Positions 15,501 through 26,954 of a DNA stretch of 40,945 bases are shown one piece after another (the stretch's first letter is position 1; each line of letters opens with the position of its first letter). The translations under genes and the position numbers were made by a program. Origin of the DNA: a virus; IMG/VR virus record IMGVR_UViG_3300043598_000008, positions 1 through 40,945 of that record. One strand, written 5' to 3'. Below the pieces are notes generated by a model that made no database searches, was not told where the DNA came from, and worked only from the letters and a program-made list of their open reading frames with translations.

Positions 15501-15697
15501 GGCATCACCTCGGCCACGACTGCGACCACAGGCGCGCGTCCCTGTCCGTCTTCACGAAGCCCACTGGGATTGCTAGTGGGCGAGGGCGGCGCAGTAGTAG
15601 ATAGAGAAGGCGGCGGAGGAATCGCATTTTCTGTCTCCATTGCGATATGCAGCCGAAGGCGGGCGGTTTCTGACAAGTCGATGCCGTTGAGCTTCAC
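15497..15697 (-). CDS. small hypothetical protein (66 aa)
   Basis: Starts at a GTG overlapping the stop of the pentapeptide-repeat gene (GTGA). A short folded N-terminus ([20 protein letters not shown]) is followed by a Pro/Ser/Thr-rich tail. Not recognised. Confidence 0.45.
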
Positions 15698-16464
15698 AAC
15701 GCAGCCCCCGCCGCACACGCACGCATGTCTTCCATTGCACCAGCGTTGTCAGCGAAGAAGTGCGGAACGCGACCGGTAGATGCGATATAGAGCATTCGGC
15801 CGGCGTGATGTGGGCCGTACTTCTCTTCCAACGCCTTGCCGGCATCGCCTGCAAGCGTGATTGCCCATCCAGCGCGACAGTGAGTGGTCTGGCACGAATG
15901 CCAGCGCGACATATCGAGCTTGCCGGCGCCGTTTTCTACTGCTGCCAGGATCTTCGCGTCTAACTGCTCAATGACCGGCACGTCAGGATTACGCTCGCGG
16001 AACTTCGCCGAGCGCTTCGCGTAACGAGCGGCGCGCTGCTCATCAGTAATGGCACGCTCATAAGGTTCGGTCGCTTCTGATCCATTGGTCTCTGGAACGT
16101 TGTAGGCGTCCGCGAGGTAGGCGTCCGCGAGGTAGGCGCCCGCGAGGTCGGCGCCCGCGAGGTCGGCGTCCGCGAGGTAGGCGCCCGCGAGGTCGGCGCC
16201 CGCGAGGTCGGCGCCCGCGAGGTTGGCGTCCGCGAGGTAGGCGCCCGCGAGGTCGGCGCGCGCGAGGTCGGCGCCCGCGAGGTCGGCGCGCGCGAGGTCG
16301 GCGCCCGCGAGGTAGGCGCCCGCGAGGTCGGCGCGCGCTTTGATCGCTTCCTTGACGGCGTAACCCAACTGACGTGATACGTATTGCGCTGCGATTTCTT
16401 CTGGCAGTTCGCACGAGAAGAGGACGGCGCTGGAGAATCGATGTTTGATTTCGAATGTGTTCAT
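15694..16464 (-). CDS. pentapeptide-repeat protein with conserved C-terminal domain
   Basis: This 256-aa protein has an N-terminal cap ([21 protein letters not shown]), then about 16 pentapeptides of A(D/N/Y)L type. From about residue 125 a separate domain contains [20 protein letters not shown] and ALEEKYG, a C-terminal domain I know as attached to pentapeptide repeats. Such repeats fold as a right-handed square beta helix; some (Qnr, MfpA) mimic DNA and shield or inhibit gyrase. Substrate here is unknown. It is paralogous in design to 17726-18538 but has a different C-terminal domain. GAGAG lies before the ATG. Confidence 0.8.
16101..16336. repeat. 15-bp minisatellite inside pentapeptide-repeat gene
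   Basis: About 16 tandem copies of a 15-bp unit (plus strand form GCGCCCGCGAGGTCG with small variations). Copies are nearly identical at all codon positions, so the array has probably expanded or been homogenised recently by slippage or unequal exchange. Each unit encodes one pentapeptide. Confidence 0.85.
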
Positions 16465-17394: not shown

Positions 17395-17729
17395 GACGCA
17401 CCGCCCGTAACAGCAACTGGTGTCCCATCAGCGTGCCCGCGCGAGGCATTCACAGTTGCGACCATTGCCGGATCACGATTGATGAGCGCTTTGCGAAAAG
17501 CTTCAATGTCGCCCTTGCAGTGATCTTTGTAGGCAACCCAAATCTGCGAGCCGCGCATTCCCATGTCATCGAGATCGAGAATGCGCATCAGCGCCATATC
17601 GTCATCTTTGATGAGCGCAGCTAGCGCGGTTACTGCGCCTGGATTTCCCTCTGCCATCTGCACGACCAAATCCAACGTCGTACCGTTCAGGGTGATTCGT
17701 TCGCGCCTTTTCATCGGATTGTTAGTCAC
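17391..17729 (-). CDS. hypothetical protein, GTG start, MTNNP type
   Basis: This 112-aa, mostly helical protein is read from the GTG at 17729 that overlaps the stop of the second pentapeptide-repeat gene (GTGA). The middle (GAVTALAALIKDDDMALMRI) looks like a regulatory-protein-type helical bundle. No DNA-binding motif is clear. The first codons follow the recurring ACTAACAA pattern. Confidence 0.55.
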   Translation of the reverse strand: MTNNPMKRRERITLNGTTLDLVVQMAEGNPGAVTALAALIKDDDMALMRILDLDDMGMRGSQIWVAYKDHCKGDIEAFRKALINRDPAMVATVNASRGHADGTPVAVTGGAS

Positions 17730-18538
17730 GACTTCGGGCCGAACGCTGCGCGCATGTTGCCGACCCACTCATCGCACCAGGCAAGGGCGATCTTTGAAAC
17801 CTCATTCGTCTCTGGCGTATCCCCTTTATTGATACCGAGGAAAAATCGCTCGCTCGGGCGGCTCGAGTCCGGCGCAAGACCTGGGAGCGTGTTGAAATCG
17901 ACGCCGCGCACCTTGGCGATCGTGCCGACCAGGCACGCGCAATCTCCGTTATAGGTGGAGCCGTCAATACGGCCGCCGGCAAGCGCCGCTCTGAGTCCGT
18001 CAACTTCAAGGGGGGCGGCGGAAAGGACCGCCCATAGATCGTCGCGGATGGGCCGCAGGTTGCTGCCGCGCAGGTTGCTGCCGCTCAGGTTGCTGCCGCG
18101 CAGGTCGCTGCCGCTCAGGTTGCTGTCGCTCAGGTCGCTGCCGCGCAGGTCGCTGCCGCTCAGGTTGCTGTCGCTCAGGTCGCTGCCGCTCAGGTTGCTG
18201 CCGCTCAGGTTGCTGCCGCTCAGGTTGCTGCCGCTCAGGTCGCTGCCGCTCAGGTTGCTGCCGCGCAGGTTGCTGCCGCTCAGGTCGCTGCCGCTCAGGT
18301 CGCTGTCGCTCAGGTTGCTGCCGCGCAGGTTGCTGTCGCGCAGGTTGCTGCCGCGCAGGTCGCTGCCGCTCAGGTCGCTGTCGCTCAGGTCGCTGCCGCT
18401 CAGGTTCACGCCTTCGGCGATCGCCTTTTTGATTGCGAAGCCTAATTGCAGGCCGTAGCTCAAGCCGGCGACTTGCGCCGATAGCCCACACTCGAATTTG
18501 ACGTCGGCCGACCAAGGGGCCTTGATTTGAAATTTCAA
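17726..18538 (-). CDS. pentapeptide-repeat protein with CACLVGT C-terminal domain
   Basis: This 270-aa protein has an N-terminal cap (FECGLSAQVAGL, QLGFAIKKAI) resembling that of the other repeat protein. About 24 pentapeptides of S(D/N)LSG type follow. The C-terminal domain contains GGRIDGSTYNGDCACLVGTI, SRPSERFFLGINKGDTPETN and WCDEWV, again a domain known mainly as a partner of pentapeptide repeats. The TTG start at 18538 was chosen because AAGGAG lies six bases upstream and its TTGA overlaps the stop of a 16-aa leader ORF. A GTG at 18556 is less likely. DNA mimicry is a family precedent, not shown here. Confidence 0.8.
   Translation of the reverse strand: MKFQIKAPWSADVKFECGLSAQVAGLSYGLQLGFAIKKAIAEGVNLSGSDLSDSDLSGSDLRGSNLRDSNLRGSNLSDSDLSGSDLSGSNLRGSNLSGSDLSGSNLSGSNLSGSNLSGSDLSDSNLSGSDLRGSDLSDSNLSGSDLRGSNLSGSNLRGSNLRPIRDDLWAVLSAAPLEVDGLRAALAGGRIDGSTYNGDCACLVGTIAKVRGVDFNTLPGLAPDSSRPSERFFLGINKGDTPETNEVSKIALAWCDEWVGNMRAAFGPKS
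18056..18408. repeat. 15-bp minisatellite inside second pentapeptide-repeat gene
   Basis: About 23 tandem copies of a 15-bp unit, plus-strand form CTGCCGCTCAGGTTG, with only a few variants (CTC/CGC, TTG/TCG, CCG/TCG). Near identity at synonymous positions points to recent expansion. The array keeps open frames on several strands by chance; only the minus-strand pentapeptide frame carries cap and C-terminal domains. Confidence 0.9.
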
Positions 18539-18585
18539 GCGGTTCTCCTTGCGCACTCGTTGAGTGCGTTCTGGTTGTTAGTCAT
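18535..18585 (-). CDS. 16-aa leader ORF before pentapeptide-repeat gene
   Basis: Reads MTNNQNALNECARRTA. It starts with the recurring ATGACTAACAA sequence. Its last codons contain the AAGGAG that serves the next gene, and its TGA overlaps the TTG start of that gene. Because the ribosome must pass a hairpin (18551-18567) inside it, it may be a translation-coupling leader rather than a functional peptide. Confidence 0.4.
   Translation of the reverse strand: MTNNQNALNECARRTA
18551..18567. promoter_or_regulatory. hairpin inside leader ORF
   Basis: Perfect 7-bp inverted repeat with 3-base loop, CGCACTC-gtt-GAGTGCG. It lies inside the 16-aa leader just upstream of the AAGGAG and TTG start of the pentapeptide-repeat gene on the minus strand. 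There is no T-run, so it is not a terminator. It could limit start access unless the leader is translated. Confidence 0.4.
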
Positions 18586-21364: not shown

Positions 21365-21696
21365 ACTTCCTCTCCCGCTACCTACACCGTGCACGCTTCC
21401 TACGCATCGAGGCTAACAAGCCGGTGGCGTGGGGCGCGTGTGAATACTCGCCAGAGCTTGCGCGCCGCAAGCAGTTCCAGCGAATGACGGCTATCGAGCG
21501 AAGGATGGTAGCTGAGCACTACGCATCCATCGCTCGCGCGCAAATGGAGTACCAGTTGGCGTACATCAAGGCGCAGTACGCGGACCAACAACGGCAGGCG
21601 CGGCAGTGTCTGGCGCAAGCGGAGGCTGCGCGGGTGGAGATGGAGCGGCAGCGGGCGATCCGGGCGATCTACAACTCACGCCAATATCCAACCTAA
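21361..21696 (+). CDS. helical hypothetical protein
   Basis: This 111-aa protein is very helical, with a long Gln/Ala/Arg-rich coiled-coil C-terminus (QYADQQRQARQCLAQAEAAR). No family recognised. Position just before the primase-helicase suggests an accessory replication role only by context. Confidence 0.5.
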   Translation: MNFLSRYLHRARFLRIEANKPVAWGACEYSPELARRKQFQRMTAIERRMVAEHYASIARAQMEYQLAYIKAQYADQQRQARQCLAQAEAARVEMERQRAIRAIYNSRQYPT

Positions 21697-21702
21697 CCAC
21701 CT

Positions 21703-21834
21703 ATGCGCAAGTGGACAACAGATGGCCGCGCAGAGGCAGATACGAGAGTCGGCAGGCTGGAGCTGTGGTGTCTATGTCGTGGATGGATGTGGCTCGCGAA
21801 TCTACTGGCACGCGCCAGAGTGAGGCGGCGATGA
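21703..21834 (+). CDS. possible 43-aa Arg/Trp-rich ORF
   Basis: Starts MRKWTTDGRAEADTRVGRLE; its stop overlaps the primase-helicase ATG (ATGA). There is no good ribosome site and the composition is unusual, so it may be chance. Alternatively the primase could start upstream in its own frame, for example at the MSWMD codons at about 21774. Confidence 0.3.
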   Translation: MRKWTTDGRAEADTRVGRLELWCLCRGWMWLANLLARARVRRR

Positions 21835-23657
21835 CGCCTGACGCCGCTACCGTTGCCTCGCGACTGCAAAAACCGAAGCGGTCTGGTCCTGGCTGGATGG
21901 CCTGTTGTCCGGCACACGAAGACTCAACCGCATCACTGTCGATCAATGACGGAGAGAAGGGCGTGGTGTTCAGATGCCACGCAGGGTGCACTCAGGAGTC
22001 GGTATTGAATGCGATTGAGGCTCTTGGGGTACAGATCAGAAAGACAAACGACAATGGTCATCACGAACACCGAGAGCCAATGCCAGTGCTAACCGTCCAA
22101 TCACTTGCAGCGGCAAAGTGGCTCAATCAGCAAATGATGCGGGAGAACTGCTGCCATGATTCATTTCGCGGAGTCGGCTTTTTCTACACGAACCAGTCCG
22201 GCGGTATCTCAGGAACCAAGTTCCGCAAATACCTTGGGCACGGTTCTGACGGGAGAGACTTCTCATGGGAAGTCGGCAGCAAGCCGTGCCTATTCGGCCT
22301 ATGGCGCCTGGAGAAAGACCTGGCCAATGACGGCCGGGTAATTCTCTGTGAAGGCGAGACAGATGCGCTGACACTGTGGCAACACGGATATACGGCACTC
22401 GGACTTCCTGGCGCGTCGATGTGGCGGGAAGAGTGGCTGGCGCAAATCCCTGAAAGCTCCAAGGTCTACGTCATCCTCGAGCCTGATCAAGGCGGGCGCA
22501 CGGTAGAAGCGGCGGTCATGAAGTCGGAGCTGCGCCCCCGCGCCTGGTTCATCCGCATGACGGAGGTGGTGAAAGATCCGAACCAGCTCCACATGGCGAG
22601 CGAGGCCGGTTTTGTCGATAACTTCGACAAGCTGATTGCGGGGGCGCAGCCAGCGGAGCCGAAGAAAGAGCCGCGCATCGTGTTGCGGCACATCGGCGAG
22701 ATTGTTGCCGATCTCAAAGAAACTGACTGGTTGATCGAGGACACAATTGAGCATCGCATAATCGGGCTCATGGTCGGAGCTCGCGGGAGCCTTAAGTCAT
22801 TTGTTGCGCTAGATTGGATGATGCGCATGGCAATCGAGAACCATGGCGTAGTCGCGCTTTCAGCGGAAGGCGATGGCTTAGGCAGACGCATAGAGGCGTG
22901 GCACAAGATGTTCGCGCCGCGCGTGGACATCAATAGCCTGCCGATGGTGGCCATGGAGCGCTCAATAAGCCTGTGTGTAGCGGATGTGCGTGACGAGCTT
23001 GCCAAAAATATTAACGGGCTCCAATGGACGCCCAAGATCATTACGATTGACACGCTGAGCAAGTACAGCGCTGGCCTCGATGAGAACGAGAATAGCGAAG
23101 TGCGGGATTTCCTTGAGGCGCTGTCAGACAGTCTACGCGTTACTTACGGATGCGCCATCCTGCTGGTCGCGCACACAGGCTACGCGGCCTCCGATCGCAT
23201 CCGTGGCGCCTCCAGCTTCGGCGCCAACACCGAGGCTGAGTACATCGTCACGCGCGCATCTCCACTCGAGCTGCTGTGCAAGGTGTCGCGCGAGCGCTTC
23301 AAGGATTCGCCCGGACTTGAACCGATCGGATACGCCGGTGAGGTGGTGGATCTAGGTCGCCAGGACAAGCGAGGGCGCCAAGTCACAAGTCTGGTGCTTC
23401 GGGCTGGAGCGGAATTGCCAGCGGCAAAGGTCCGCGGCGCCGGGGCAAACCAGACCGCCACACTGGTCGCACTCAGGGAGTGGGTCGCCTCCCATCCTGG
23501 CCAAGAAGTCATTCCTCACGACGAACTAGCAGACCTGCTCAAACGCCAAGGCGTCAACAGAAAGCGCAAACCTGAAGTCCTCAACTGGTTGGTGAACGCT
23601 GGCGCCATTTTGCCATCGGTCGGAGGTCACAAAGTGAACGGTAAGGCAATCCTATGA
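21831..23657 (+). CDS. primase-helicase (zinc finger, TOPRIM, RecA-like ATPase)
   Basis: This 608-aa protein has an N-terminal zinc finger (C26-P-A-H29, then C49-H-A-G-C53) as in DnaG-type primases. A TOPRIM domain at about 165-245 follows (VILCEGETDAL with Glu174, VILEPDQGG with Asp219). A RepA/AAA_25-like ATPase starts at about 300, with Walker A GARGSLKS at 316-323 and Walker B IITIDTL with Asp407, then LLVAHTG. It should prime and unwind DNA, relying on a host polymerase since none is encoded. The ATG at 21831 begins right at the zinc-finger module. The candidate origin follows immediately. Confidence 0.85.
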   Translation: MTPDAATVASRLQKPKRSGPGWMACCPAHEDSTASLSINDGEKGVVFRCHAGCTQESVLNAIEALGVQIRKTNDNGHHEHREPMPVLTVQSLAAAKWLNQQMMRENCCHDSFRGVGFFYTNQSGGISGTKFRKYLGHGSDGRDFSWEVGSKPCLFGLWRLEKDLANDGRVILCEGETDALTLWQHGYTALGLPGASMWREEWLAQIPESSKVYVILEPDQGGRTVEAAVMKSELRPRAWFIRMTEVVKDPNQLHMASEAGFVDNFDKLIAGAQPAEPKKEPRIVLRHIGEIVADLKETDWLIEDTIEHRIIGLMVGARGSLKSFVALDWMMRMAIENHGVVALSAEGDGLGRRIEAWHKMFAPRVDINSLPMVAMERSISLCVADVRDELAKNINGLQWTPKIITIDTLSKYSAGLDENENSEVRDFLEALSDSLRVTYGCAILLVAHTGYAASDRIRGASSFGANTEAEYIVTRASPLELLCKVSRERFKDSPGLEPIGYAGEVVDLGRQDKRGRQVTSLVLRAGAELPAAKVRGAGANQTATLVALREWVASHPGQEVIPHDELADLLKRQGVNRKRKPEVLNWLVNAGAILPSVGGHKVNGKAIL

Positions 23658-23800
23658 CTACCCTTAAGGAGCGTCCGAAATGTCCGAAACCGTCCGATTC
23701 GGACAGGATGAAGCGTCCGAAATGTCCGAACAACCGTAAGGTTCGGACGTTCGGACACCCTCGTCTTGTATCACCCCACCACTCCCGAGCCACGCCATGA
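23654..23800 (+). CDS. small basic protein encoded across the iteron cluster
   Basis: This 48-aa Lys/Arg/Pro-rich protein contains two copies of ERPKCP/KRPKCPN because its DNA is the repeat cluster itself. ATGA overlaps at both ends suggest translation. It may be a by-product of an origin placed inside a coupled reading frame. Confidence 0.4.
   Translation: MTTLKERPKCPKPSDSDRMKRPKCPNNRKVRTFGHPRLVSPHHSRATP
23673..23756. repeat. GTCCGA iteron cluster, candidate replication origin
   Basis: Within 84 bp there are eight copies of GTCCGA: forward at 23673, 23682, 23692, 23715 and 23724, reverse (TCGGAC) at 23699, 23743 and 23751. Spacing within groups is 8-10 bp, near one helical turn. 23692-23704 is a perfect 13-bp palindrome (GTCCGA-T-TCGGAC), and an 18-bp unit GCGTCCGAAATGTCCGAA occurs twice. 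Position right after the primase-helicase gene is typical for iteron origins. Function is inferred. Confidence 0.6.
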
Positions 23801-23973
23801 GCTGCCAGTGGTACGTGTGGATACCGCGACCCTGGGCCCTCAAGGGTGGCCATGGCGCTCGCTACAACTTGGGTAAGACGCGATACACCAAACCGGGATG
23901 GCGAGCGCGCCTCAAAGTGTGGGCAAGTTTCTGCCCACTGCACGGACGGCTTTGCTGGGAATACACGCCATGA
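23797..23973 (+). CDS. small Trp/Arg-rich hypothetical protein
   Basis: This 58-aa protein reads MSCQWYVWIPRPWALKGGHG and ends FCPLHGRLCWEYTP. Three cysteines and two histidines could bind a metal. ATGA overlaps on both sides. No family recognised. Confidence 0.45.
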   Translation: MSCQWYVWIPRPWALKGGHGARYNLGKTRYTKPGWRARLKVWASFCPLHGRLCWEYTP

Positions 23974-25243: not shown

Positions 25244-25601
25244 CCCGAATCCTCAAAAGCCACCCGTTCACAGCCAGTTCGGCAAGGGCAACAATGCCAA
25301 CCCAGGAGGCAAGCCCGTAGGCGCGCGCAACCGCATCACGGCGCATTTTTTGAATGCGCTCGCCGATCATTTCGCGAAGCATGGCAAGAAAGCCATTGAG
25401 CTCGCATGCGAGGAAGATCCGGTGGGCTACCTCAAGGTCATCGGTGCGCTGATGCCCAAGCAGATCGAGGTCACGCGACCGTTGGAAGGGCTGACCGATG
25501 ATGAACTTTCTGCCATTGCTGAACAAATCCGATCCGCGCTTGATTCTCCAGGCAGTGGATCTGGAGCTCAGCCTTCGCAAGAGCCATCGCAAGTTAACTG
25601 A
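25236..25601 (+). CDS. terminase small subunit-like protein (DUF5681 type)
   Basis: This 121-aa protein shows the N-terminal pattern FGKGNNANPGGKPVGARNRI, followed by a helical HTH-like body (ITAHFLNALADHFAKHGKKA, EEDPVGYLKVIGALMPKQIE), as in DUF5681 proteins next to large terminases. It likely recognises phage DNA and feeds it to TerL. The ATG at 25236 overlaps the co-chaperonin stop; its 3' end overlaps terL by 104 bases. Confidence 0.7.
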   Translation: MANPNPQKPPVHSQFGKGNNANPGGKPVGARNRITAHFLNALADHFAKHGKKAIELACEEDPVGYLKVIGALMPKQIEVTRPLEGLTDDELSAIAEQIRSALDSPGSGSGAQPSQEPSQVN

Positions 25602-26193
25602 GTACGTACCGTACGATAAGCAAAGGGCCTTCCACGACGCTGGCGCTAACTATCGAGAGCGGCTATTCCTAGCAGGTAATCGGTGCGGCAAGACGCAAGC
25701 TGGTGCGTTTGAGATGGCCATGCATCTCACCGGTCTCTATCCAGATTGGTGGCGTGGTAAACGATTCGATAAACCAATACGCGCGTGGGCAGCCGGCATC
25801 ACTGGAGAATCAACTCGCGATGTGGTGCAAGAGAAATTATTCGGCCCTCCCGATCAGCGTGACGCATGGGGCACTGGCGCGATACCGAAAGACCGCATCG
25901 GCGACATCATCACTGGCCGGGGTATTGGCAACGCTGTGGACATGGCGTCCATCAAACATGCGAGCGGTGGCTGGTCATCGCTTGGCTTCAAGTCATATGA
26001 GAAGGGGCGAGAGAAGTGGCAGGGCTCGGCGCTCGAGGTTTGCTGGATGGACGAGGAAAGCCCGCTCCCGCTATACCTCGAAGCTCTAACTAGAACGAAC
26101 GAGACAGGCGGACTTGTCTATTTGACCTGTACTCCGCTCATGGGTATGAGTTCGGTAATGATTCGCTTCCTCATGCCTGAGCAAGACCATTGA
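25498..26193 (+). CDS. terminase large subunit, ATPase part (split gene)
   Basis: These 231 aa cover the packaging ATPase: a YDKQRAFHDAG adenine-binding type motif at 39-49, Walker A GNRCGKT at 60-66, and Walker B ending VCWMDEES at 181-188, with later RTNETGGLVYLTCTPL as coupling motif. The P22/Terminase_6 family normally continues into a nuclease domain of a single protein of about 480-500 aa. Here the frame stops at 26191-26193 right at the domain border. ATG 25498 has GGAAGG upstream. Confidence 0.85.
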   Translation: MMNFLPLLNKSDPRLILQAVDLELSLRKSHRKLTEYVPYDKQRAFHDAGANYRERLFLAGNRCGKTQAGAFEMAMHLTGLYPDWWRGKRFDKPIRAWAAGITGESTRDVVQEKLFGPPDQRDAWGTGAIPKDRIGDIITGRGIGNAVDMASIKHASGGWSSLGFKSYEKGREKWQGSALEVCWMDEESPLPLYLEALTRTNETGGLVYLTCTPLMGMSSVMIRFLMPEQDH

Positions 26194-26954
26194 GCGCTCA
26201 CAAAGACCGCATAGTCATCCAAGCAGGTATCGAAGACGCCGGCCACTTCACAGCCGAAGACCGCGCGCGCATTATCGCGTCCTACCCTTCGTGGGAGCGT
26301 GAAGCCAGAACGAAGGGCATCCCCCAACTAGGATCTGGCCGCGTGTTTCCCATCGACGAAGACGATATCCGCTGCGCCCCAATGCCGATCCCCGCGCACT
26401 GGCCGCAGCTTGCGGGACTCGACTTCGGCTGGGATCACCCATCGGCTGGCGTGCGCCAGGCATGGGATCGCGACGCCGATTGCCTGTACGTCATTGCAGC
26501 GCATCGCGCGCGGGAGCAGACTCCGGCGATGTTCGCCGCCAGCGTGCGGCCGTGGGGAGACTGGTTACCGTGGGCTTGGCCGCATGACGGATTGCAACAT
26601 GACAAGGGCAGTGGCGAGCAGCTTGCCGCGCAGTATCGAGCGCAGGGGCTCAAGATGCTGCCGCAGCGTGCGACATTCGAGGATGGCTCGTTCGGTGTGG
26701 AGGCGGGTATTGCCGAGATGCTTGATCGCATGCAGACGGGACGCCTGAAAGTGTTCAGTCACCTGGCCGACTGGTTTGAGGAATTTCGGCTGTATCACCG
26801 CAAAGACGGACTTATCGTGAAGGCCGGTGACGATCTGATGAGCGCCACACGCTACGGGATCATGATGCGTCGGCATGCGGTCCTTCGGAATAAACCCGCG
26901 CCTGCAACACCGCAGCGAGGACATCACAACGGCTCTGCCGCATGGATGGGATAA
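26190..26954 (+). CDS. terminase large subunit, nuclease part (split gene)
   Basis: These 254 aa hold the C-terminal half: KDRIVIQAGIEDAGHFTAED, SYPSWEREARTKGIPQLGSG and RVFPIDEDDI, then LAGLDFGWDHPSA with Asp78, the first acidic residue of the RuvC-like nuclease. The frame is minus one relative to the ATPase part and could restart at TTG 26190 (TTGA overlap). No slippery heptamer is seen at the join. Either one base is missing from the sequence or TerL is made as two polypeptides. Confidence 0.85.
   Translation: MSAHKDRIVIQAGIEDAGHFTAEDRARIIASYPSWEREARTKGIPQLGSGRVFPIDEDDIRCAPMPIPAHWPQLAGLDFGWDHPSAGVRQAWDRDADCLYVIAAHRAREQTPAMFAASVRPWGDWLPWAWPHDGLQHDKGSGEQLAAQYRAQGLKMLPQRATFEDGSFGVEAGIAEMLDRMQTGRLKVFSHLADWFEEFRLYHRKDGLIVKAGDDLMSATRYGIMMRRHAVLRNKPAPATPQRGHHNGSAAWMG

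Follow-up and report, generated by a model that had tools for sequence, protein, structure and literature searches.

An array of eight GTCCGA/TCGGAC hexamers lies directly behind the primase-helicase gene in a stretch of viral DNA of 40,945 nucleotides (IMG/VR record IMGVR_UViG_3300043598_000008; the whole stretch is termed the window here), and it is very probably a replication origin of the iteron type or, at the least, the site at which the cognate primase-helicase, encoded immediately upstream, binds and is loaded. The evidence, drawn from sequence throughout, consists of the array itself, its position, its recurrence behind related genes, the covariation of the iteron with a winged helix in the adjacent protein, and a helicase that is homologous to RSF1010 RepA. 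An earlier, sequence-only reading of the window had proposed a phage origin recognised either by the primase-helicase or by a small neighbour protein. The former option is strongly favoured by comparison, in that the layout recurs at the 3′ ends of related helicase genes and the iteron tracks the winged helix, while nothing was found to support a small neighbour protein as the reader.

The array occupies positions 23673–23756 and begins 15 bp past the stop of the primase-helicase gene. All eight hexamers were located within these 84 bp, in the forward orientation at 23673, 23682, 23692, 23715 and 23724 and inverted at 23699, 23743 and 23751, giving start-to-start spacings of 9, 10, 7, 16, 9, 19 and 8 bp. 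The copies form a first half-array of three direct copies and one inverted copy (23670–23704) and a second half-array of two direct copies, a hairpin and two inverted copies (23712–23757), the second being offset by 42 bp from the first; neither the array nor its halves are assigned to a strand. Two details of the sequence-only reading needed correction. The duplicated unit it described is present at 23670–23688 and 23712–23730 (AGCGTCCGAAATGTCCGAA), again at an offset of 42 bp, but is 19 rather than 18 bp long, and the 13-bp palindrome within the first half-array (GTCCGATTCGGAC, 23692–23704) exists but is not perfect, as 6-bp arms flank one unpaired base.

Over the whole window GTCCGA occurs 18 times, compared with 22.8 expected from shuffles, and the hexamer is thus without general enrichment; its distribution is uneven, 8 of the 18 copies being concentrated in the 84 bp. 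In 200 first-order Markov sequences of the window the maximum count of any hexamer per 84 bp was 5, and usually 3–4, vs. the 8 seen. GC skew around the genome, which had been suggested as a guide to the origin, gave no usable signal, as the change it shows near 20 kb falls where the coding strand switches. Within the window the DNA repeat signal is strongest in the gene for a minus-strand protein at 17726–18556 which, like a second minus-strand protein at 15694–16464, consists largely of pentapeptide-like repeats (ADLAG, SGSDL/SGSNL).

The primase-helicase is encoded by a 683-codon ORF on the plus strand (21606–23657), the true start of which may lie further downstream than this GTG, and comprises a CHC2 zinc finger (residues 87–130), a primase region, a RepA-type AAA_25 helicase (residues 364–525) and a C-terminal winged helix. 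Pfam comparison gave AAA_25 at 1.6e-22 and Zn_ribbon_DnaG at 6e-5, the latter slightly below its cut-off, and the protein also matched phrog_239 (DNA primase/helicase) at 6e-24. A profile of the helicase and tail matched RSF1010 RepA (1g8y) with an E-value of 3e-15, and the AlphaFold2 model of the same region (pLDDT 92) aligned with the RepA structure 1olo over 217 residues (Z 22.0, 2.5 Å). On these profile and model comparisons, the helicase core is homologous to RSF1010 RepA, a RecA-fold hexameric helicase. In another part of the window, the terminase large subunit was represented by two overlapping ORFs, 25498–26193 (ATPase half) and 26190–26954 (nuclease half), both matching phrog_2, which is either a natural split or a frameshift.

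The last 70 residues of the primase-helicase (23445–23654, plus strand) were modelled by AlphaFold2 as a winged helix with the element order H-E-H-H-E-E, and this domain is the predicted iteron reader. Fold searches with helicase and tail together were uninformative on the tail, as helicase matches fill the list. When the tail was used alone, the best VIA match was the MCM8 winged helix 6l0o (Z 10.1, 68 residues, 2.0 Å), and Foldseek returned general winged-helix matches only (best E 0.08). The winged helix is a general fold, which by itself reveals no function. The predicted recognition helix is the third helix of the modelled domain (RKRKPEVLNWLVN, model residues 295–307), encoded at 23559–23597 on the plus strand, and the corresponding segment in relatives is the site of iteron-class-specific residues.

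A whole-protein search of public phage records returned distant relatives only (at most 59% query coverage, ~ 24–31% identity), and the comparison was therefore based on IMG/VR and GTDB contigs. A further protein search gave distant relatives in which other repeats occupy the same place, namely CACCGAA in L002 and L004, GCCGCA in L001 and TGTCCC in L007. Profile searches then enlarged the set to 203 RepA-type proteins for which downstream sequence was available; removing redundancy left 100. The 170-bp interval at the stop codon had the top repeat score of the whole locus in 64 of these 100, and fell within the top 5% of locus repeat scores in 78. About a third of the 100 had no array at the stop codon; several of these had a displaced one, found at +270 in L298 and at ~ +850 in L348, both with CTTTAG hairpins, and the L348 array was apparently pushed ~ 850 bp from the helicase stop by inserted sequence. 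The iterons at RepA-type stop codons differ (GTCCGA, GTACGA, GGTCAA, GCACCGAA, CCGGACAT, GGGGAAA and others), and a common layout of direct copies, an inverted copy, further direct copies and then a hairpin with iteron arms is found in dozens of lineages. As a set, the arrays are 6–11 points more AT-rich than their own loci.

A reciprocal scan used DNA alone, starting from three GTCCGA copies and keeping clusters that had at least four copies in one orientation and two in the opposite one. Many database GTCCGA clusters are in-frame codon repeats. The scan gave 12 clusters of the required form, and 7 of the 12 lay where a gene for a RepA-type helicase ends. L066, L080, L098, L103, L107 and L129 have a RepA-type helicase and tail with the array directly past the stop codon, and a Prim-Pol at the N terminus wherever the contig extends that far, while L121 has a weaker RepA-type match and its array 9 bp past the stop. 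Within the GTCCGA group the arrays are closely alike: copy positions are 0, 9, 19, 26 (inverted), 42, 51, 70 (inverted) and 78 (inverted) in the window, and 0, 9, 19, 36 (inverted), 52, 61, 81 (inverted) and 89 (inverted) in L177.

Four cultured phages, Idiomarinaceae 1N2-2, Salicola CGphi29, Alteromonas PB15 and Roseobacter CRP-406, had an array in the corresponding position, built on an iteron particular to each phage, and no array was found at the helicase stop of Caulobacter GB2A, Gordonia Sour or Mycobacterium Wanda. Salicola phage CGphi29 is named in a paper on TIGR arrays. In a TIGR array, which adjoins the gene for a Nop-domain (Tas) protein, two repeats of 8–12 nt alternate, with spacers of 9 nt; the present layout does not fit, the repeats being 6–7 nt long, in mixed orientation and without regular spacers, and the neighbour being a primase-helicase. 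RepA-type proteins with arrays were also observed in bacterial genomes (L255–L290; Streptomyces, Actinomadura, Mycolicibacterium, Methylobacterium and Mesorhizobium), and these loci are probably prophages or integrated elements. Arrays were observed, too, behind primase-helicases that do not appear to be RepA-like, with GAAGGGATA and a long hairpin at L006 3461–3590, GGAAAC at L008 7600–7720 and GGCTGGGT at L048 7480–7660, and fused phage primase-helicases may in general be followed by an array at the 3′ side.

The relationship between the iteron and the modules of the adjacent protein was analysed for 65 arrays. Array similarity correlated with tail similarity when the core was accounted for (partial r 0.18, permutation p 0.001) but not with core similarity given the tail (0.007, p 0.87); since the sequences compared share ancestry, the permutation values overstate independence and are indicative only. 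The iteron was shared in 74–93% of pairs with tail similarity of at least 0.6, compared with ~ 5% at 0.4–0.6. Mapped onto the tail tree, the 31 iteron classes required 30 changes, which is the smallest number possible; the core tree required 35, and on it sister cores (L080/L250, L185/L192 and L303/L304) have different iterons. As judged from these comparisons, iteron identity follows the C-terminal winged helix and not the helicase core. Nor does it go with the type of primase. L177, which is 46% identical to the window protein in helicase and tail, has a Prim-Pol, as does L080, in place of the CHC2 primase of the window, and the helicase, winged helix and GTCCGA array are common to all three; the iteron thus goes with the helicase and tail.

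Recombination would move the adjacent tail and array together, and such linkage explains part of the congruence. Class-diagnostic residues were found at 0.40 in the recognition helix and 0.19–0.24 in other segments (57 of 10 000 random column sets were as high), and were not enriched in the protein segment nearest the array. Within one subfamily, recognition helix GLPRQSVHDAVEKL goes with GTCCGA, GLPRSSVHEAVEKL with TGTCCGG, GLNRHSVHDAVEKL with TTGGAA, GQSKQSVHKAVEAM with GGTCAA and MSKTTAHAAAEAL with GTACGA. Because class-specific differences are about twice as strong in the recognition helix as in neighbouring segments, linkage alone does not fully explain the congruence, and the peak of class-specific residues at this helix argues for function.

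Among openly licensed papers, none was found on this arrangement in RepA-type phages, and the closest comparisons are with other replication systems. SaPI origins have two iteron sets around an A+T-rich stretch. The window differs in having two half-arrays without an A+T-rich stretch between them, and no A+T-rich unwinding region was seen beside the array, the array and its flanks within 200 bp being 33–50% AT. SaPI Rep and SCC Cch2 bind iterons directly 3′ of their own gene through the C-terminal domain of the helicase, and in SaPI5 Rep primase and helicase are fused (PMC7581432). The position directly downstream of the initiator-helicase gene is thus alike, at 15 bp in the window and at the stop codon in 64 of 100 relatives, and the modelled winged helix, which the iteron follows, would correspond to the C-terminal reader. 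The SaPI Rep and Cch2 helicases are D5/SF3-like AAA+ enzymes, however, whereas the helicase here is of the RecA-fold AAA_25/RepA type. The helicase of phage P4 α is likewise SF3-type, unlike the RepA-type helicase here, and we know of no P4 counterpart of the hairpin at the array end. P4 α, acting with ori/crr, is alike in carrying primase, helicase and winged helix on one polypeptide, of which the winged helix binds origin repeats (PMC4234260, citing Ziegelin and Lanka 1995; Yeo et al. 2002). The Sulfolobus plasmid pRN1 depends on a stem-loop that follows its replication gene, and a structured element 3′ of a primase-helicase-winged-helix gene has been shown as origin in pRN1 and proposed in phage BIP-1 (PMC4234260); these differ in having an SF3 helicase and a large stem-loop without iterons. 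The RepA-type family thus appears to work like SaPI Rep, P4 α and pRN1 with another helicase, but is not a member of the SaPI/D5 family.

RSF1010, with oriV and ssiA/ssiB, is alike in its homologous RepA helicase core and in combining iterons with stem-loops, where RepA unwinding exposes the stem-loops at which RepB′ primes (PMC4234260). It is unlike the present system in using three separate proteins, RepA, RepB′ and RepC, with RepC rather than RepA reading the iterons. In the window, a single chain contains the primase, the helicase and the predicted iteron reader, the stem-loop is built of iterons, and no separate RepC or RepB′ was assigned among the window proteins tested.

This stem-loop (GTCCGAACAACC-GTAA-GGTTCGGAC, 23724–23748, plus strand) is a second hairpin, absent from the sequence-only reading, and is the counterpart of the CTTTAG-tipped hairpin of the relatives, although its own tip is GTAA and not CTWWAG. 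As DNA, the array region folded better than 200 of 200 shuffles (z −3.9), with the tip paired as in the 23724–23748 hairpin. CTTTAG or CTATAG was present in 37 of 65 arrays, compared with 3.2% of background windows, and the centre of the paired CTWWAG tip was TT in 25 cases, AT in 7, TA in 6 and AA in none. Such a strand bias would be unnecessary for a palindrome acting purely as double-stranded DNA, and by analogy with the RSF1010 stem-loops we infer that the hairpin is a strand-specific priming or entry site.

For DNA binding, unwinding, origin activity and the role of the hairpin together, we infer the following course of events. The C-terminal winged helix of each subunit would read a single GTCCGA iteron, and the spacing of the copies by roughly a helical turn would let two groups of subunits assemble, one per half-array. 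The RepA-type RecA-fold helicase on the same chain would then close round melted DNA and unwind it, the hairpin that ends the second half-array would become single-stranded and serve as a strand-specific entry or priming point, and the primase portion of that chain would synthesise the first primer.

A winged helix and palindromic sites would also be compatible with a regulator, and the array could be an operator through which the primase-helicase regulates its own or downstream transcription, the origin lying elsewhere; same-strand genes do resume immediately downstream. This is unlikely, however, as the array stands behind the gene and not at a promoter, no site resembling a promoter or a terminator was found near it, and experimentally studied proteins of like architecture use the 3′-adjacent site as an origin (PMC7581432, PMC4234260). 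A role as RNA, in which the array would give the primase-helicase transcript a structured 3′ end or a coupling element, would account for the strong folding of the region as RNA (z −4.3, better than 200 of 200 shuffles) and for the fixed orientation of the tip (CT-TT-AG 25 vs. CT-AA-AG 0), and GTAA would form a GNRA tetraloop in RNA. This must nevertheless be judged distinctly improbable, given that the folding as DNA is equally unusual, direct-repeat copies also lie outside any local stem, the iteron sequence covaries with a domain of a DNA-binding type, and the window array has neither a terminator-like U-run nor an Rfam match.

The sequence-only reading had placed the repeats inside a translated, coupled 48-aa ORF (23654–23800, plus strand). 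The ORF and its ATGA overlap with the primase stop are present, but its translation is unsupported, and it probably represents no conserved gene product. ATGA start-stop overlaps at 23654 and 23797 link the primase, the 48-aa ORF and a 58-aa ORF (23654–23973), an arrangement that suggests translational coupling across the array. Together with the finding that 48 of 65 arrays, compared with 17.8 in shuffles, have an ORF of at least 100 nt beginning close to the stop codon, these overlaps would suit a reading in which the array codes for a short repetitive peptide and repetition at the DNA level is a by-product of this. The frequent open frames can, however, be explained because the iterons are stop-free. 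Iteron copies fall in differing reading phases within one array and between arrays, inverted copies are kept, relatives read the array in other frames and L175 has no such ORF; in the comparison with relatives the repeats are kept and the 48-aa peptide is not, which makes this reading highly improbable. Neither of the two outcomes that the sequence-only reading had named as speaking against an origin, an even spread of GTCCGA or a peptide conserved without the repeats, was encountered. Finally, functionless chance or simple-sequence expansion, to which the in-frame codon repeats among database clusters might point, has practically nothing left to it, with 8 copies against a Markov maximum of 5, mixed orientation, and a comparison that already contradicts it through dozens of lineages sharing the same layout with different sequences.

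If the array is the origin, as favoured here, several consequences follow for phages of this kind. To our knowledge, origins are unmapped for most phages with this replication module, and the rule 'just past the RepA-type primase-helicase stop codon' predicts them for many uncultured phages as well as for the cultured Alteromonas PB15, Idiomarinaceae 1N2-2, Salicola CGphi29 and Roseobacter CRP-406. The winged helices paired in nature with different iterons form a ready test of the evolution of origin specificity, and of why co-infecting phages or satellites do not share origins; iteron/winged-helix pairs could also supply mutually compatible replicons. A wider proposal is put forward tentatively and with some doubt, namely that RepA-type phage primase-helicases carry an exchangeable, fast-diversifying cassette of winged helix and iteron origin, such that close relatives with near-identical helicases would fire only their own origin, and that each origin would end in a strand-specific iteron hairpin with a recurrent CTTTAG tip, a built-in single-strand priming site resembling the ssi of RSF1010 but independent of the type of primase. 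Were this to hold, the correspondence between winged helix and iteron would amount to a readable specificity code.
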